Assembly (NCBI RefSeq): GCF_030269925.1
Contig: NC_085117.1
Location: 8,308,731-8,372,730, forward strand
From: Bombyx mori
Taxonomy: Eukaryota > Arthropoda > Insecta > Lepidoptera > Bombycidae
Reading direction: 5' to 3'
DNA: 64,000 nt
A program made the translations under genes and the position numbers. The notes below the pieces were generated by a model. It was not told the origin of the DNA, ran no database searches, and saw nothing but the letters and a program-made list of their open reading frames with translations. Every line of letters starts with the position of its first letter. Positions within the stretch are counted from its first letter, which is position 1. Of this stretch, positions 16,017-29,623 are shown one piece after another.

Positions 16017-16205
16017 CACAGCCCACTAAATTTCTCGCCGGATATTCTCAGTGGGTCGCGTTTCCGATCCGGTAGTAGATTCAGCGAAGCACAGCTCTTG
16101 CTAGGGCTAGTGTTAGCAACGTCCTCAGGTTAGAGCCCCGTGAGGTCACCTACTCGTTCACTGAATCTAGTATGACCTCTCGAGGTCACTACAATAGGTA
16201 GGAAA
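16017..16205 (+). mobile_element. LINE 3'-end fragment (L1Bm/BMC1 type)
   Basis: TTTCTCGCCGGATATTCTCA, GTGGGTCGCGTTTCCGATCC and GCTCTTGCTAGGGCTAGTG are all present in order. Plus orientation. Confidence 0.7.
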
Positions 16206-18247: not shown

Positions 18248-18448
18248 GAATGGGTGATTATATTCTAGACGCAACAGTATAGACCGAAAGATAACATCAG
18301 TAAAATATTTACTATGTTAAAAAGGACGTATGCGATATAATTATCTTTGTAGTTATTCGATTGAATGCTAAATTATCAGTTATCAGTTGCTTATCAATAA
18401 ACTACAACAACAAACGTATTCACACGGTACGCGCAGATGAATCATGTT

Positions 18449-18484
18449 TGCGCTCATCGCTTTGCGCACGAGCGTTTTGCACAC
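18449..18484 (+). promoter_or_regulatory. Cluster of three metal-response elements
   Basis: Three same-strand matches to the MTF-1 core TGCRCNC within 36 bp: TGCGCTC (18449-18455), TGCGCAC (18463-18469) and TGCACAC (18478-18484). MTF-1 is the zinc-finger factor that induces animal metallothioneins. The cluster lies 20-55 bp upstream of the TATA-like box. This is independent support for calling the downstream gene a metallothionein. Confidence 0.75.
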
Positions 18485-18545
18485 GATAGATAAGTCGCGT
18501 GTATTTAAACTGTCGGTACTTATCAATTGTTTTAGTACTTATCGT
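18485..18545 (+). promoter_or_regulatory. Core promoter of the metallothionein-like gene
   Basis: TATTTAAA (18502-18509) is a TATA-like box. About 30 bp downstream is TTAGT, close to the arthropod initiator. GATA-factor motifs surround it: GATAAG at 18489, CTTATC at 18519 and another at 18539. GATA sites are typical of insect midgut and fat-body promoters, which is consistent with metal handling there (inference). Transcription start predicted near 18533. Confidence 0.6.
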
Positions 18546-18595
18546 CGTGTCGAACTGTGTTTTAATAGCATCGCAACAATCTGCAAGTCGAACCG
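18533..18595 (+). other. Predicted non-coding exon 1 of the metallothionein-like gene
   Basis: Short leader ending AACCG before a consensus donor GTAAGTG (18596). It has no ATG in a good context. The matching acceptor is TTTTTAATTTTCAG ending at 19716. The start is inferred from the TATA position, the end from the donor. Confidence 0.5.
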
Positions 18596-19716
18596 GTAAG
18601 TGTCGTTCTAAATTATTACACCGTATCGGAAAATGATTGACAACATTTCATAACCGTACCATATTTTGAATTTCATTAGTATTTAATTTCAATATTACTG
18701 TTTTCCTTACTGTCATATTATTTATGTGTTGGGCTTTGCCCATTGAGTTTCTCGCCGAATATTCTCAGTGGGTCGCGTTTCCGATCCGGTGGTAGATTTT
18801 GTGAAGCACTGCTCTTGCTAAGGCTAGTGTTAGCAACACTTCCGGTTTGAGCTCCATGAACTCACCTACACGTTAAGGCGATGCTGAAATAGTTTCTCAA
18901 GGCTATCGACAAAGGTAGTTTGTGATTTGAAATCACAGTCTCAGTTTGAGAGCCGCTGTATTTTTCTTCAAACTGAAATCGATGAAAGACAGATTCTTGG
19001 ACTGACCTGGAGGGCACTCACTTATTACATATATAGGAGTGAAAGGCTGTTCACCCAACATTTATCTTTGTAATTAAAGGAAAGTTTTATTTGGTGTTAG
19101 CATCAACAGTTCGATGTTTTTGATTTAATTTCAATTAAGTTTATTTCATTCAAATAGCTGTAGAAATTTCTTTGTTATGATATATTTTTTAAATTTTATA
19201 CTTTAAATGGCTCTCTTGTAAAGTTGTAAAAATTTTGCTTAAAACAAATATTCTTGAACCTCTTGATATATAGTACCTACATAATAATATCTTTTTAAGC
19301 CATATTATTCCATTATCGTGGAAGTCATTCGTGAATGTGTATTAGGACCTTAAGTAACGTAATTACTTTTTTAATACTAATATCAATGTCGCAATTAAGC
19401 CTACTCTTACGGTTTAATCTTGCGTTTATTAGATTAAATTGGAAAAGTCGTTTCAATTATATTTACGACTAGGGATAAATGAAGATATTTTTCTTATGCC
19501 TGTAGCTCGATGGCATGTTATTATGTCTATAGGCTCTTTTGACCGTTCATATCCAAGAGAGCTCAGATAGATCTAGAGTAAAATAAGATCACATCTTATC
19601 ACAAGATATATCTCAATAAGTAGTAAATCTTCTATCTGTTGGAAGCAATTAAAATAATTTATGCTTGAATTTAATTGTATTCTAAGAATTTTAACTTTAC
19701 ATTTTTTAATTTTCAG
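18596..19716 (+). other. Predicted 5'-UTR intron
   Basis: GTAAGT donor to TTTTCAG acceptor, 1121 bp. It holds a LINE 3' fragment (18732-18916) and otherwise AT-rich unique sequence. The acceptor sits 12 bp before the chosen ATG. The Drosophila metallothionein intron lies inside the coding region, so this placement would differ. Confidence 0.5.
18732..18916 (+). mobile_element. LINE 3'-end fragment inside the predicted intron
   Basis: TTTCTCGCCGAATATTCTCA through GGTGGTAGATTTTGTGAAGC to CAAGGCTATCGACAAAGG. Plus orientation, non-coding, L1Bm/BMC1 tail family. Confidence 0.7.
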
Positions 19717-19728
19717 TTCAATAAAAAG

Positions 19729-21147
19729 ATGGCCTGCAAAACGAATATTTGTAAGCGTTTAACAAGTGAAGAGGATCAACGTAAGCAATGTAATATCAAG
19801 GTATGCAATGATTGCTCATGTACCCCTGCTCAGTCTAAAGAACTGAAATGTGACAAATCTGGTTGCATTTGTGTACCGACTGAAGGAAAGCCATGCGTTT
19901 GCATTTGTAAGGAAGATGGAAAGCTCCTTCGCTGTGACGACTGCAAGTGTGATGAAACTGGCAAATGTGATAAACCGGAATGTCTCTGTATACCGACTGA
20001 AGGAAAACCTTGTATTTGCCTGTGTAGCGATGACAAAGGTAATATAAAGGTATGCGATGATTGCTCATGTACTCCTGCTCAGTCTAAAGAACTGAAATGT
20101 GACAAATCTGGTTGCATTTGTGTACCAACTGAAGGAAAGTCATGCATTTGCATTTGTAAGGAAGATGGAAAGCTCCTTCGCTGTGACGACTGCAAGTGTG
20201 ATGAAAATGGCAAATGTGATAAACCGGAATGTCTCTGTATACCGACTGAAGGAAAACCTTGTATTTGCCTGTGTAGCGATGACAAAGGTAATATAAAGGT
20301 ATGCGATGATTGCTCATGTACTCCTGCTCAGTCTAAAGAACTGAAATGTGACAAATCTGGTTGCATTTGTGTACCAACTGAAGGAAAGTCATGCATTTGC
20401 GTTTGCAAGAAAGATGGGAAATTCGTTCGCTGTGACGACTGCAAATGTGATGAAAATGGCAAATGTGATAAACCGGAATGTCTGTGTATACCGACTGAAG
20501 GAAAACCTTGTATTTGCCTGTGTAGCGATGACAAAGGTAATATAAAGGTATGCGATGATTGCTCATGTACTCCTGCTCAGTCTAAAGAACTGCAATGTGA
20601 CAAATCTGGTTGCGTTTGTGTGCCGACTGAAGGAAAGTCATGCATTTGCATTTGTAAGAAAGATGGAAAACTCCTTCGTTGTGACGACTGCAAGTGTGAT
20701 GTGAATGACAAATGTGATAAACCGGAATGTCTCTGTATACCGACTGAAGGAAAACCTTGTATTTGTCTGTGTAGCGATGACAAAGCTAATATAAAGGTAT
20801 GCGATGATTGCTCATGTACCCCTGCTCAGTCTAAAGAACTGAAATGTGACAAATCTGGTTGCATTTGTGTACCGACGGAAGGAAAGTCATGCATTTGCAT
20901 TTGTAAGAAAGATGGAAAGCTCCTTCGCTGTGACGACTGCAAGTGTGATGAAAATGGCAAATGTGATAAACCGGAATGTCTCTGTATACCGACTGAAGGA
21001 AAACCTTGTATTTGCCTGCGAAGCGATGACAAAGGTAATATAAAGGTATGCGATGATTGTTCTTGTGCCCCTGGTCAGTCTAAAGAACTGAAATGTGACA
21101 AATCTGGTTGCATTTGTGTACCGACTGAAGAAAAATCTTATTCTTAA
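19729..21147 (+). CDS. Giant tandem-module metallothionein-like protein
   Basis: 472 residues, 98 Cys (about 21%). There is no His, one Phe and one Tyr, and no signal peptide or membrane segment, so it is likely cytosolic. After a 23-residue leader (MACKTNICKRLTSEED...) come five 83-residue repeats and a partial sixth. Each repeat has a 44-residue A module (Cys spacing C-2-C-1-C-9-C-4-C-1-C-7-C-1-C-1-C) and a 39-residue B module (same but 5 instead of 9). Both carry nine Cys, the count of a metallothionein M3Cys9 cluster. Modules share (V/I)PTEGK. Ten modules could hold about 30 divalent ions (inference). The fifth B module has Cys to Arg, and the last A module stops after six Cys. An upstream in-frame ATG at 19675 lies in the predicted intron, so 19729 is preferred. 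Typical insect metallothioneins are 40-70 residues. Alternatives are a structural Cys-rich protein or another metal store. Confidence 0.8.
   Translation: MACKTNICKRLTSEEDQRKQCNIKVCNDCSCTPAQSKELKCDKSGCICVPTEGKPCVCICKEDGKLLRCDDCKCDETGKCDKPECLCIPTEGKPCICLCSDDKGNIKVCDDCSCTPAQSKELKCDKSGCICVPTEGKSCICICKEDGKLLRCDDCKCDENGKCDKPECLCIPTEGKPCICLCSDDKGNIKVCDDCSCTPAQSKELKCDKSGCICVPTEGKSCICVCKKDGKFVRCDDCKCDENGKCDKPECLCIPTEGKPCICLCSDDKGNIKVCDDCSCTPAQSKELQCDKSGCVCVPTEGKSCICICKKDGKLLRCDDCKCDVNDKCDKPECLCIPTEGKPCICLCSDDKANIKVCDDCSCTPAQSKELKCDKSGCICVPTEGKSCICICKKDGKLLRCDDCKCDENGKCDKPECLCIPTEGKPCICLRSDDKGNIKVCDDCSCAPGQSKELKCDKSGCICVPTEEKSYS
19798..21144 (+). repeat. 249-bp coding tandem repeat (5 full units plus 102 bp)
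   Basis: Units start at 19798, 20047, 20296, 20545 and 20794, with a partial unit from 21043. They are nearly identical at nucleotide level, including many synonymous sites, which points to recent duplication or gene conversion. Expect copy-number variation between strains and assembly collapse. Confidence 0.95.
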
Positions 21148-23490: not shown

Positions 23491-25889
23491 GACCAATCCA
23501 GTAAGACGGCCAGACGAGCTCACAGTACACCTAACTTTAGACATCCCAATGTAAATTCCATCTTATGAGACTGGGCGAAGTTTCGATTTTGTTTTGCAAC
23601 GATTGCCCGGGTAAGACAAGTCAATTCGAGTAGGTCAGGAAGGTAGAAAAACGCAGGGCTAAGAAATACGCAAGGAACCTACGGTGTGTCCTGCTACCAG
23701 TTATTATGTTAATTTAAGCAAAATCGGATTTCTTTTAATATCATTCCTGCATTGTAATCAAAATTTCTACAAGAGCCTAATTGTTATATAAACATTGTTA
23801 TACAATGTTGATATGATTCATTTTACAAAGATTCTTAAATAATACACTCGTACAATGAAAGCTGAATTGAACATCACTTTTTATGTTGAGATTTTTCGAG
23901 CATTTCAGAAGAAAATTATTCTGTAATGTGACGAGGGGACATCAATCTGTTTTTGGAATTCTAAGCTCAAAGTTATCATTGTTTTTGTTACAAAACGTTT
24001 GTGACTAAACCTTGTAGTTAATGTGACTGCTAATTTTCAAATCATTGGGGTTAATCACAAAGGTCTACTACTTCGTAATGATCTTCATAATAATCTAGGT
24101 CTTGAACCCATTCATGAGTATGATGGTGCTTACTATTTTTAAAAGTGGTAGCGACTCGAGAAGTGACAATTGATAGATGACAGATGACAGCTGATGTTGT
24201 TGTCACTTTGACACAGCTAATGTAGATTACGTGCGAGGCCTAAAGAACAAAGAGTAATCGGGCGGCATCGCGCCTGTGCATTGCGTGTTCGGTGAAGTTG
24301 TCTTAGAGAGATTACTAAGTGAACCGCGTTAATTATAATTACCACTTTATTACGGGTAATAAAGAGTTTATTGTTTGACCGAGTTATTTTGTAATAAATT
24401 CTCCTTGCTTACCGTGGTTTTTTTTTACGTACCGGTATACTTACATACAACATACAACTTGCAATGTCTCTGTCCTTGAGTTGATAGACCTCGGGCAGCT
24501 TTTAAGCTGAAAAGCTGCCGGTTCACAAATGTTCGTTCTGGCTCAAAATTTACTGATCGATCTAAGAGCACAAATTATTCAGATCTCACTGTGAAAATCT
24601 AACTCTCTACACCGGGATACTTTAACTCTTACGTCGTCAGGTCATTTTAGTTTTTTGACGACGATTCCGAACACGTCACACTAAATAAAAAGTGAGTATG
24701 GAAATGAAAGTATTACGAACAATATACCTCATCAAATTACAAGGTAATGTAGGTCAAATGATTCTACAATTAATCTGAATATCGTATCTGCGATGTACCT
24801 AACCACTATGTGTGTTTGTATGTGACGCCATTTTGCGATGTAGGTCGCATCCTCGGCTACTTGAATTTTGGCGAAACTTTCTAACCATATTGTGGTTTGA
24901 ACTTAATGATATCATTTTATTGTACTTATTGAAGTGAAACTTCCTTATCGGCGTTGGAAAAAAATTTACCGTCACATTTTTCGGTTACGCGTCACTTTTT
25001 TCCGTTACGCGCCATCTGTTTTGTATTCATGTCTATGATAATAAAATCCTTTTGTTTAAACTTTATCTAATTTAACTTTTTTGTATTCATGTCTATGATA
25101 ATAAAATCCTTTTGTTTAAACTTTATCTAATTTAACTTTATTTAACCAATTTCTAGAAAGTTGCATGTAGATCATTTTTCGAAAAATAAGGCCATAAACA
25201 AGTTTCACTTCTTACGTGTGTACACTAGTACACGCACACATTTTTTTTCATCATGTATGTATGCGATTTTTCAAATCATTTCAAATAACCTAAAATTTTC
25301 TATGGTAATGGTATTCCCATTTAATTTCTAATTTCATCATCTCTTTGAACCATATTTTATCTTGAATGAGTTTCTGTAAGAACTAAAGTTTCTACATTCT
25401 GTATACATATATTAATTTAGTTGCCTGCACCACTCTAGTCCAGAGACCACCAGTCGATTTGTAGATACGTGTTTTTTTAAGCTATGCTTATTATAAAAGC
25501 TATACTTTATCGCGGGCTTTGAGCGCGGCGACTGAATCAAGAAATTACGTAACTAAAATAACCTGACACCCCACTACGCCTACTATGTAGCTCGCGTTCA
25601 ACACATTCACACGTTGCGCTTGTGTAGTGTTTGTGAATAAGCGCGCGGCGTGACGTCGCACTGCCGCATGCACATCATGAAAAGTCTGCCCATCTCTCCC
25701 TCGCGCGGTCTAGTTTATGAGTGTGAAAGGGACAGTTAACGTTTTGCTTTTGTTAATGTTTATAAATATAGCGTGGTCTTATTTTATTGTTGTTTTAATA
25801 TTAAATTATTATTGTCGATTTATAATTGCATAAGTTGATAAAAAATTCTATGCAATAGCTTTACCGCGGCAGTTTCCAAGTGCCACACG
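23491..25889. other. Intergenic with two promoter-like patches
   Basis: About 24160-24330 has repeated TGACAG motifs, TTGTCACTTTGACA and a GC-richer leader (GGGCGGCATCGCGCCTGTGC). About 25590-25735 is CpG-rich with GCGTGACGTCGCA. Either could be a promoter or untranslated exon, but no coding exon is identifiable. A 60-bp tandem duplication lies at 25021. Confidence 0.35.
25021..25139 (+). repeat. Perfect 60-bp tandem duplication
   Basis: The segment from TTGTATTCATGTCTATGATA to CTAATTTAACTTT is repeated head to tail with no substitution (period 60). No mobile-element signature. Confidence 0.9.
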
Positions 25890-27648: not shown

Positions 27649-27719
27649 CATCACCATTTCCAGTATCTCATTCAAATATATAAAATAAAAACAGTTTTAT
27701 ATGCAGTATCACGGTAAGC

Positions 27720-29623
27720 CGGGGGCGGAGATCCATGCGGCCGTGTCCAAAATGAGAGCGAAGGACACGGCCCCCGGCCCTGACGGCGTTCACGGCCGGG
27801 TCTGGAGCTTGGCCTTCGAGGCCCTAGGGGACCGGCTCGGGGGGCTTTTCGAAGCGTGCCTCGAGTCGGGACGGTTCCCGTCGAAATGGAAGACGGGCAG
27901 ACTGGTCCTTCTGCGGAAGGACGGGCGCCCCGCGGACTCACCCGCGGGCTATCGCCCCATCGTGTTGCTGGACGAAGCGGGCAAGATGTTCGAGAGAATC
28001 GTCGCGGCCCGCATCGTCCGGCACCTGACCGAGACGGGTCCCGATCTTTCGGCGGAGCAATACGGCTTCAGAGAGGGCCGCTCGACTATCGACGCAATTC
28101 TGCGCGTGCGGGCCCTCTCCGACGAAGCCGTATCCCGGGGCGGGGTGGCGATGGCGTTATCCTTAGATGTAAGGAACGCCTTCAACACCCTGCCCTGGTC
28201 GGTGATCGCGGGGGCGCTGGAGTATCACGGCGTCCCCGCATACCTCCGCCGACTGATCGGCTCCTACCTCGAGGGCAGGTCGATCCAGTGCATCGGACAC
28301 GGTGGGGCGATGTACCGCTTTCCGGTCGAGCGCGGTGTTCCGCAGGGGTCTGTCCTGGGCCCCCTGCTGTGGAACATCGGCTACGACTGGGTCCTGCGGG
28401 GCGTCGTACGGGGTCCCCTCCCCGGGCTGAGCGTAATATGTTACGCCGACGACACGTTGGTCGTGGCTCCGGGGAGGGACTACCGGGAGTCTGCCCGTCT
28501 GGCGTGCGCAGGCGTGGCACACGTCGTCACAAGGATCCGACGGCGGGGACTCGAGGTGGCGCTCGACAAAACCCAGGCCCTGTTGTTTCACGGGCCGGGA
28601 CGAGCGCCGCCTCTGGGTGCCCACCTCGTGATCGGAGGCGTCCGCGTCGGGGTCGGGGTGACCGGTCTTCGGTACCTCGGCCTCAAACTGGATGGTCGGT
28701 GGAACTTCCGCGCTCACTTTGCGAAGTTGGGCCCTCGACTGATGGCGACGGCCGGCTCTTTGAGCCGGCTGCTTCCAAGCGTCGGGGGTCCCGATCAGGT
28801 GGCGCGCCGCCTCTACATGGGGGTGGTGCGGTCGATGGCACTATACGGGGCTCCCGTATGGTGCCACGCCCTGACCCGCAAGAACGTCGCGGCGCTGCGA
28901 CGTCCGCAGCGCGCGATCGCGGTCAGGGCGATCCGAGGATACCGCACCGTCTCCTTCGAGGCGGCGTGCTTGCTCGCCGGGGCGCCACCCTGGGACCTGG
29001 AGGCGGAGGCGCTCGCTGCCGATTACCGGTGGCGTAGCGACCTTCGTTCTAGGGGGGAAGGGCGCCCCGGCGAAGGAGTAGTTCGAGCGCGGAGGCTCCA
29101 ATCTCGGCGGTCCGTGCTGGAGGCGTGGTCTCGCCGCTTGGCGGACCCGTCGGCCGGCCTCCGTACCGTCGAGGCGGTCCGCCCGGTTCTCGCGGACTGG
29201 GTGGGCCGCGACCGCGGATGCCTCACCTTCCGGCTGACGCAAATGTTGACCGGCCATGGTTGTTTTGGCCGGTACCTTTTCAAAATAGTCGGAAGGGAAC
29301 CTACGGCGCAGTGCCACCACTGCGCTGACCGCGACGAGGAAGACACAGCGGAACACACATTGGCGCGTTGCTCTGGATTTGACGAGCAGCGCGCCGCCCT
29401 CGTCGCGGTCATTGGAGAGGACCTCTCGCTGCCGCGCGTCGTGGCTACGATGCTCGGCAGCGAGGCGTCCTGGAAGGCGATGCTCGACTTCTGCGAGTCC
29501 ACCATATCGCAGAAGGAGGCGGCGGAGCGAGAGAGGGAGAGCTCTTCCCTTTCCGCACCGATCCGTCGCCGTCGAGCCGGGGGCCGGAGGCGGGAATACG
29601 CCCGTACGTCCCGGCCCCTGTAG
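27720..29623 (+). CDS. R1-clade LINE reverse transcriptase (partial ORF2)
   Basis: Uninterrupted frame. Residue numbers count from the first in-frame ATG (27701), which lies in host DNA, so the real start is lost. RT motifs in order: APGPDGVHGR (24-33), YRPIVLLDEAGKMFER (84-99), EQYGFREGRST (119-129), SLDVRNAFN (154-162, first catalytic Asp), GVPQGSVLGP (212-221), YADD (248-251, catalytic pair) and GLRYLGL (322-328). A C-terminal knuckle C538-x2-C541-x10-H552-x4-C557 is typical of R1-type ORF2. The apurinic-type endonuclease that should precede RT is gone, so the copy cannot move itself. No stop in about 634 codons implies a young insertion. Confidence 0.92.

Follow-up and report, generated by a model that had tools for sequence, protein, structure and literature searches.

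The window analyzed here, a stretch of 64,000 nucleotides of the Bombyx mori genome (contig NC_085117.1, positions 8,308,731 to 8,372,730), contains a reading frame at positions 19729-21147 whose product is rich in Cys and built of repeats. The question raised by this locus is whether the protein is a metal buffer of the metallothionein type or whether its Cys residues serve some other purpose. The counts that first drew attention to the frame (472 residues, 98 Cys, no His, repeats of 83 residues) were all reproduced. Cys makes up 20.8% of the chain (98/472), which further contains 70 Lys, 54 Asp and 12 Asn; aromatic residues are limited to one Phe and one Tyr (2/472), Trp being absent like His. 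The CxC motif occurs 41 times, and the N-terminal 25 residues carry three additional Cys outside the modules described below. Such a composition, with abundant Cys placed in CxC and CxxC motifs and few aromatics or His, is that of a metallothionein, although the Cys share falls below the 25-30% found in short metallothioneins. Among the stop-to-stop frames of at least 25 residues in the window, three reach at least 7 Cys per 40 residues: this one, with 10, and two unrelated frames with 8 and 7.

When the genome (461.7 Mb in 30 contigs) was searched with the protein's own sequence, 19729-21147 was the only match found among the matches listed. The same locus was the only one below E 0.001 when a 131-residue relative or a Papilio protein (see below) served as query, the second place for the Papilio query lying at E 0.10. 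The gene is probably single-copy. Neighboring genes gave no Pfam match at E 0.01 in six frames over about 12-27 kb of the window. Further along, at 25019-25139, 60 bases are duplicated perfectly in tandem (2.0 copies). The only Rfam match at gathering threshold, mir-3389 at 28322-28390 on the minus strand (95 bits), is antisense within a 640-residue frame (27701-29623) that by eye resembles a non-LTR retrotransposon reverse transcriptase (YADDT, GVPQGSVLGP). Given this location, the mir-3389 "microRNA family" may be transposon sequence.

Most of the coding sequence is a tandem array with a period of 249 nucleotides (Table 1). Five copies of 300 nucleotides were compared at this period; the other four are 94-97% identical to the first. 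Each 83-residue unit comprises two modules. In the five copies of module A the Cys residues follow the pattern C-x2-C-x-C-x9-C-x4-C-x-C-x7-C-x-C-x-C (gaps 2,1,9,4,1,7,1,1), and in the four intact copies of module B the gaps are 2,1,5,4,1,7,1,1. The near-identity of the two spacings seen in the initial annotation thus comes down to a single difference, a loop of 9 residues in A and 5 in B. The same annotation had counted ten nine-Cys modules and a broken eleventh. Here the number of complete modules is nine (five A and four B), not ten, because B5 has only eight Cys: it terminates in CICLR, the codon for the ninth Cys being CGA as opposed to TGT in the four other B copies. The broken eleventh module, A6, stood as described, with six Cys. 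A complete Cys module is repeated in tandem within one chain, the feature by which multi-domain metallothioneins are recognized and from which metal binding would be expected.

Table 1. Positions in the window of the coding sequence, its modules and the surrounding candidate control and processing signals.
Feature	Position	Strand	Basis or remark
GATA-type sites (seven)	18289..18525	.	densest such cluster in the window
Metal response elements TGCRCNC (three: 18449, 18463, 18478)	18449..18484	+	motif scan; all on the gene's strand
TATA-like TATTTAA	18502..18508	+	17 bases past the last metal response element; putative role
Putative non-coding leader exon, start approximate	18530..18595	+	ends at GTAAGT donor
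Putative 5' UTR intron, 1121 nt, GTAAGT...TTTTAATTTTCAG	18596..19716	+	donor and acceptor motifs
Coding sequence, single coding exon	19729..21147	+	472 aa with 98 Cys; His and Trp absent
In-frame tandem array of 249-nt units, 5.4 copies	19790..21134	+	83-residue A+B unit; array score 2424
Module A1, 9 Cys	19804..19908	+	residue positions converted to bases
Module B1, 9 Cys	19933..20025	+	Cys-spacing match
Module A2, 9 Cys	20053-20157	+	residue positions converted to bases
Module B2, 9 Cys	20182-20274	+	Cys-spacing match
Module A3, 9 Cys	20302-20406	+	residue positions converted to bases
Module B3, 9 Cys	20431-20523	+	Cys-spacing match
Module A4, 9 Cys	20551-20655	+	residue positions converted to bases
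Module B4, 9 Cys	20680-20772	+	Cys-spacing match
Module A5, 9 Cys	20800-20904	+	residue positions converted to bases
Module B5, 8 Cys (aa 401-431)	20929..21021	+	ninth Cys replaced by Arg
Shortened module A6, 6 Cys (aa 441-472), plus stop	21049..21147	+	repeat alignment
AATAAA	21264..21269	+	117 bases past stop codon

The DNA following the stop codon holds the register of the B repeat for 23 bases, 16 of which match (equaled in 2 of 9000 placements); beyond this point the register is lost, the next 34 bases matching at 10. A search for a post-stop repeat match without fixed register gave no significant result (44/500 shuffles equal or better). Since the B register persists past the stop and then decays, the broken eleventh module looks like the front half of an A module fused to the decayed back half of a B module. 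The state of this 3' end, with the Cys-to-Arg change in B5, the stop in A6 and the decayed register downstream, would also fit a gene that is degenerating or recently dead, in which chance or conversion has preserved an open array, and the 472-residue protein itself was absent from the matches listed in the protein collection search. We consider a dead gene very improbable, however, in view of the 472 open codons and of the differences between units: replacement differences are fewer than silent ones, with a pooled pN/pS of 0.25, a rough figure because the units compared lack independence and have perhaps been homogenized. In the five full units the variable columns of Cys codons are all synonymous apart from the Arg in B5, the one Cys replacement they show; the shortened sixth unit has one further Cys replaced. 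A promoter-like region, a splice donor, a splice acceptor and an AATAAA are all present, and homologues exist in four named species.

The first of these homologues is a Pieris rapae protein (P0002, called MEGF10 in its source), found at E 4e-23 with the 472-residue protein alone as query. A Papilio xuthus protein (P0003) scored E 3.6e-9 in a protein search, later protein searches added proteins from Pieris brassicae (P0004, source name KAP5-3-like) and Papilio machaon (P0005), and an unnamed ENA protein of 131 residues (P0006) is a further homologue. All of the named source organisms are Lepidoptera. As the first search scored the 8000 candidates sharing most words and each search admits one length range, more relatives may exist. 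Residues other than Cys agree beyond chance in three module comparisons (10, 5 and 7 of 20000 permutations were as good), which argues for homology and not merely for a shared Cys content. In the two Pieris proteins the exact B spacing occurs in 3/3 strict modules each, with degenerate modules between the intact ones. Complete nine-Cys modules number zero in the two Papilio proteins, whose Cys content is 13-14%; the cluster is therefore not kept in every member of the family, and the metal capacity of the swallowtail relatives may be reduced. These two proteins partly retain PTEGK-like loops and some CxxCxC stretches. The initial annotation had known of no lepidopteran protein of such an architecture, a statement that the Pieris and Papilio relatives correct, with the qualification that those of Papilio are without an intact nine-Cys module.

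The ENA protein has 27 Cys. One of its modules has nine of them, a second module contains one Cys more, and the tail accounts for 7; the loop, counted from the third Cys to the CxxxxCxC core, is 8 residues long in the nine-Cys module and 5 in the other. It may resemble an ancestral two-bead form. The A-B order is read here from loop length only, since by alignment score its module 1 is slightly closer to B (129) than to A (122). A tree built on 17 module sequences (7 out of the 10 full-length modules in the window, 6 from Pieris, 2 from the ENA protein and 2 from P. xuthus) separates A, B and Pieris modules but adds little, with 1/14 inner branches well supported.

The names attached to P0002 (MEGF10) and P0004 (keratin-associated 5-3-like) bring up the possibility that the protein is secreted or structural, as in eggshell, cuticle or keratin-associated-like proteins, and cross-linked by disulfides. 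The stretch CxxCxC...C....C, which bears some likeness to EGF-like or von Willebrand type C modules, would be in line with this. Yet in none of the six family members does any Pfam or NCBIfam model reach its cut-off; with no EGF model and no hydrophobic N-terminal stretch, membership of the EGF or MEGF10 families was rejected, as was membership of the keratin-associated, eggshell and cuticle families, for which no Pfam model was found in any of the six, and models for VWC and chorion proteins were equally without a match. Homology to a structural Cys-rich family, which the initial annotation had named as an outcome that would tell against its reading, was thus sought in Pfam and not found. A simple hydropathy calculation predicts no hydrophobic N-terminal stretch in 6/6 proteins. 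The putative leader exon contains no ATG, and stops in frame upstream close the reading frame, so that such an upstream exon could not add a signal peptide. Chorion proteins are rich in Gly and Tyr; the present protein is rich in Lys and Asp, with its 2 aromatics in 472 residues. Together with the triple of metal response elements in the promoter (see below), these results make a secreted or structural protein unlikely.

Metallothionein models, Metallothio_5 included, did not match the 472-residue protein in Pfam either, at E up to 10. This silence does not count against a metallothionein, because three joined copies of the repeat consensus from the multi-domain metallothioneins of the snail Alinda likewise have no Pfam match (E up to 1). 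A search with PF02067 for a short canonical metallothionein elsewhere in this genome found nothing, and the same model also finds none in 14 control genomes (0/14). Several matches were discarded as effects of composition: Mala_s_1-like, at E 6e-6 but with 26.6 bits where the cut-off is 27.5, and with no stretch passing; the weaker Imm-NTF2-2, SGL and QLQ matches to the 472-residue protein, below their cut-offs; and PterinBD-DUF4346 and PRK00872, below cut-off in the Pieris proteins. A viral relative was likewise rejected, 0 of the 200 stretches that fitted the patterns in one IMG/VR scan being confirmed.

The Cys pattern would also be compatible with a zinc-cluster protein doing a different job, that is, a regulatory or scaffold protein with Zn3Cys9 clusters of the CXC or pre-SET-like kind, in which the metal would have a structural role and would not be stored. 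The segment CxC-x5-C-x4-CxC-x7-C of the B spacing is near the CXC consensus (CxC-x4-C-x4-CxC-x6-C), and the PTEGK loops are unchanged across 8 aligned stretches of the window. On the other hand, no CXC/TCR or pre-SET model matched at E up to 10 (although the filters of HMMER let few matches beyond about 0.1 through), no relative of the 472-residue protein was found among solved structures, and the matches of a module profile to the PDB were insignificant (best E 0.065, then 0.11). Near-identical tandem copies with 21% Cys would suit capacity over specificity, and the promoter holds the triple of metal response elements. A zinc-cluster role of this kind appears quite unlikely to us.

The region upstream of the gene was scanned for TGCRCNC, the consensus for metal response elements (MREs) applied to a springtail metallothionein promoter (PMC1913499). 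The motif is not enriched in the window as a whole (25 observed, 36 expected). Three of these copies, however, lie within 36 bases on the gene's strand. Clusters of three within 60 bases were obtained in 2/300 shuffles of the window, in 0/300 with all three on one strand, and in 1/5000 shuffles of the 2 kb upstream. At least three MREs anywhere in these 2 kb, unclustered, occurred in 270/5000 shuffles, and it is therefore the clustering and not the number of MREs that is notable. No such cluster turned up in 22 further stretches of this genome, which add up to 220 kb and contain 90 MREs. A slightly narrower form of the pattern was found genome-wide at 223 places, versus 316 for the reversed control, so that it is not enriched overall in the genome; a single TGCGCGC repeat family accounts for many of the places listed, but at this frequency about 0.001 would be expected in any given 2 kb. 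Several contigs carry a dispersed tandem repeat based on TGCGCGCACTGCTCGCGTGCCGCTGGC that contains MRE-like words, among other places at C1:3907435-3908557, C5:5351597-5352124 and C11:18261231-18261510. The GATA cluster at the site of the MREs has 7 sites in 237 bases, as compared with a maximum of 5 for any such length within the 220 kb sampled elsewhere. Sought with a hypothesis in mind, the MRE triple and the GATA cluster would point to metal-responsive control.

A TATA-like element and a candidate leader exon follow the MREs. The GTAAGT at 18596 is the sole one from 16 kb to the start codon, and the putative acceptor, TTTTAATTTTCAG, ends at 19716. Two SINE-like copies, 90% identical, lie at 16021-16120 and 18738-18837, the second within the putative leader intron.

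The best reading of these data is that the protein would act like a multi-domain metallothionein, a claim separate from membership of the insect metallothionein family. Nine Cys arranged in CxC and CxxC motifs are able to hold divalent ions in M3Cys9 clusters of the type found in the beta domains of snails and vertebrates. Each module of 31-35 residues would fold round a metal-thiolate cluster via its nine Cys, most likely taking up three divalent ions (Zn or Cd), and linkers of 8-9 residues would join the modules into a string of beads. The load of the chain would then be roughly 27-32 ions, 27 in the nine intact modules and some more in the incomplete ones. At high metal, MTF-1 acting at the three MREs would raise transcription, and GATA factors might set the tissue, conceivably the gut or the fat body. 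Unequal exchange among the 249-nucleotide units may have multiplied the two-module A-B pair, in which case capacity would grow with the number of units. The ratio of Lys to Asn is 70/12, and an excess of Lys over Asn is given as characteristic of snail metallothioneins that select for Cd (PMC7084494); as Lys is well above Asn here as well, Zn or Cd is predicted to be preferred over Cu. The metallothionein-like reading proposed in the initial annotation has gained from the MRE triple, the nine-Cys spacing that recurs in Pieris, the missing hydrophobic N-terminus and the excess of Lys over Asn, and has been trimmed in its module count to nine; metal binding is predicted. Overall, we consider it likely that this lepidopteran gene encodes an intracellular, MTF-1-regulated, multi-module metallothionein-like buffer.

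A literature search of open-license papers listed no title or abstract opening that described a lepidopteran multi-module metallothionein. Liu et al. are said to have published a paper in 2021 (reportedly Chemosphere 273:128522) whose title speaks of "a novel metallothionein in silkworm"; Purac et al. reportedly identified a metallothionein gene in Ostrinia nubilalis in 2021, and Luo et al. are said to have written on insect metallothioneins in 2020. The silkworm metallothionein of Liu et al. may be the gene at 19729-21147, provided that it is the long protein; if it is, the finding is partly known already, and this is the main limit on its novelty. Should the protein bind metal, Lepidoptera would join snails and tunicates as animals whose metallothioneins lengthened through multiplication of a cluster module, they would gain a candidate metal-detoxification gene unrecognized by Pfam and NCBIfam, the database names MEGF10 and keratin-associated protein, both misleading, would be corrected, and an insect open to genetics could be used to test capacity against bead number and copy number against exposure.

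Insect metallothioneins (Drosophila MtnA-type, Metallothio_5) are Cys-rich proteins with CxC motifs under MTF-1 control, normally about 40-70 residues long. The moth protein differs from them in its 472 residues and in giving no Metallothio_5 match. Closer parallels in architecture are found in a snail and a tunicate. The 9md-MT and 10md-MT of the snail Alinda biplicata consist of nine and ten domains, with 81 and 90 Cys in 287 and 319 residues; their capacities are put at 27 and 30 Cd by the authors' extrapolation, and the multi-domain genes are transcribed and were studied under Cd (PMC7084494). The moth protein resembles them in the lack of His, the near-identical tandem copies, the intronless sequence from start to stop and the excess of Lys over Asn. 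It differs in spacing (3,4,1,3,1,3,1,2 in Alinda, counted from the printed consensus, versus 2,1,9 or 5,4,1,7,1,1), in its longer modules with PTEGK loops, in lacking a distinct C-terminal domain and in its total length of 472 residues. Multi-domain forms are described as having originated independently in two snail clades and, on unpublished data, as string-like (PMC11101346). It is quite possible, if short of probable, that Lepidoptera separately evolved a metallothionein family on their own nine-Cys module and that in this moth it grew to 472 residues by A-B multiplication; giant modular metallothioneins would then have arisen independently once more, in addition to their origin in tunicates and the two within snails. 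Strains may differ in the number of units, which might adjust metal capacity, much as the number of repeats differs between populations of the tunicate Oikopleura. There, OdiMT2 of O. dioica carries a two-module unit (t-12C/12C) in tandem and stands beside a bi-modular relative; the repeats number 3 to 7 between populations, and capacity climbs with their number (PMC8283569). Both proteins are tandem repeats of a two-module unit, the modules having 12 Cys in OdiMT2 and 9 in the moth. Metal binding has been measured for OdiMT2, whose six-repeat form of 399 residues has the longest metallothionein length found in print in the sources drawn on here, whereas the moth protein exceeds it at 472.
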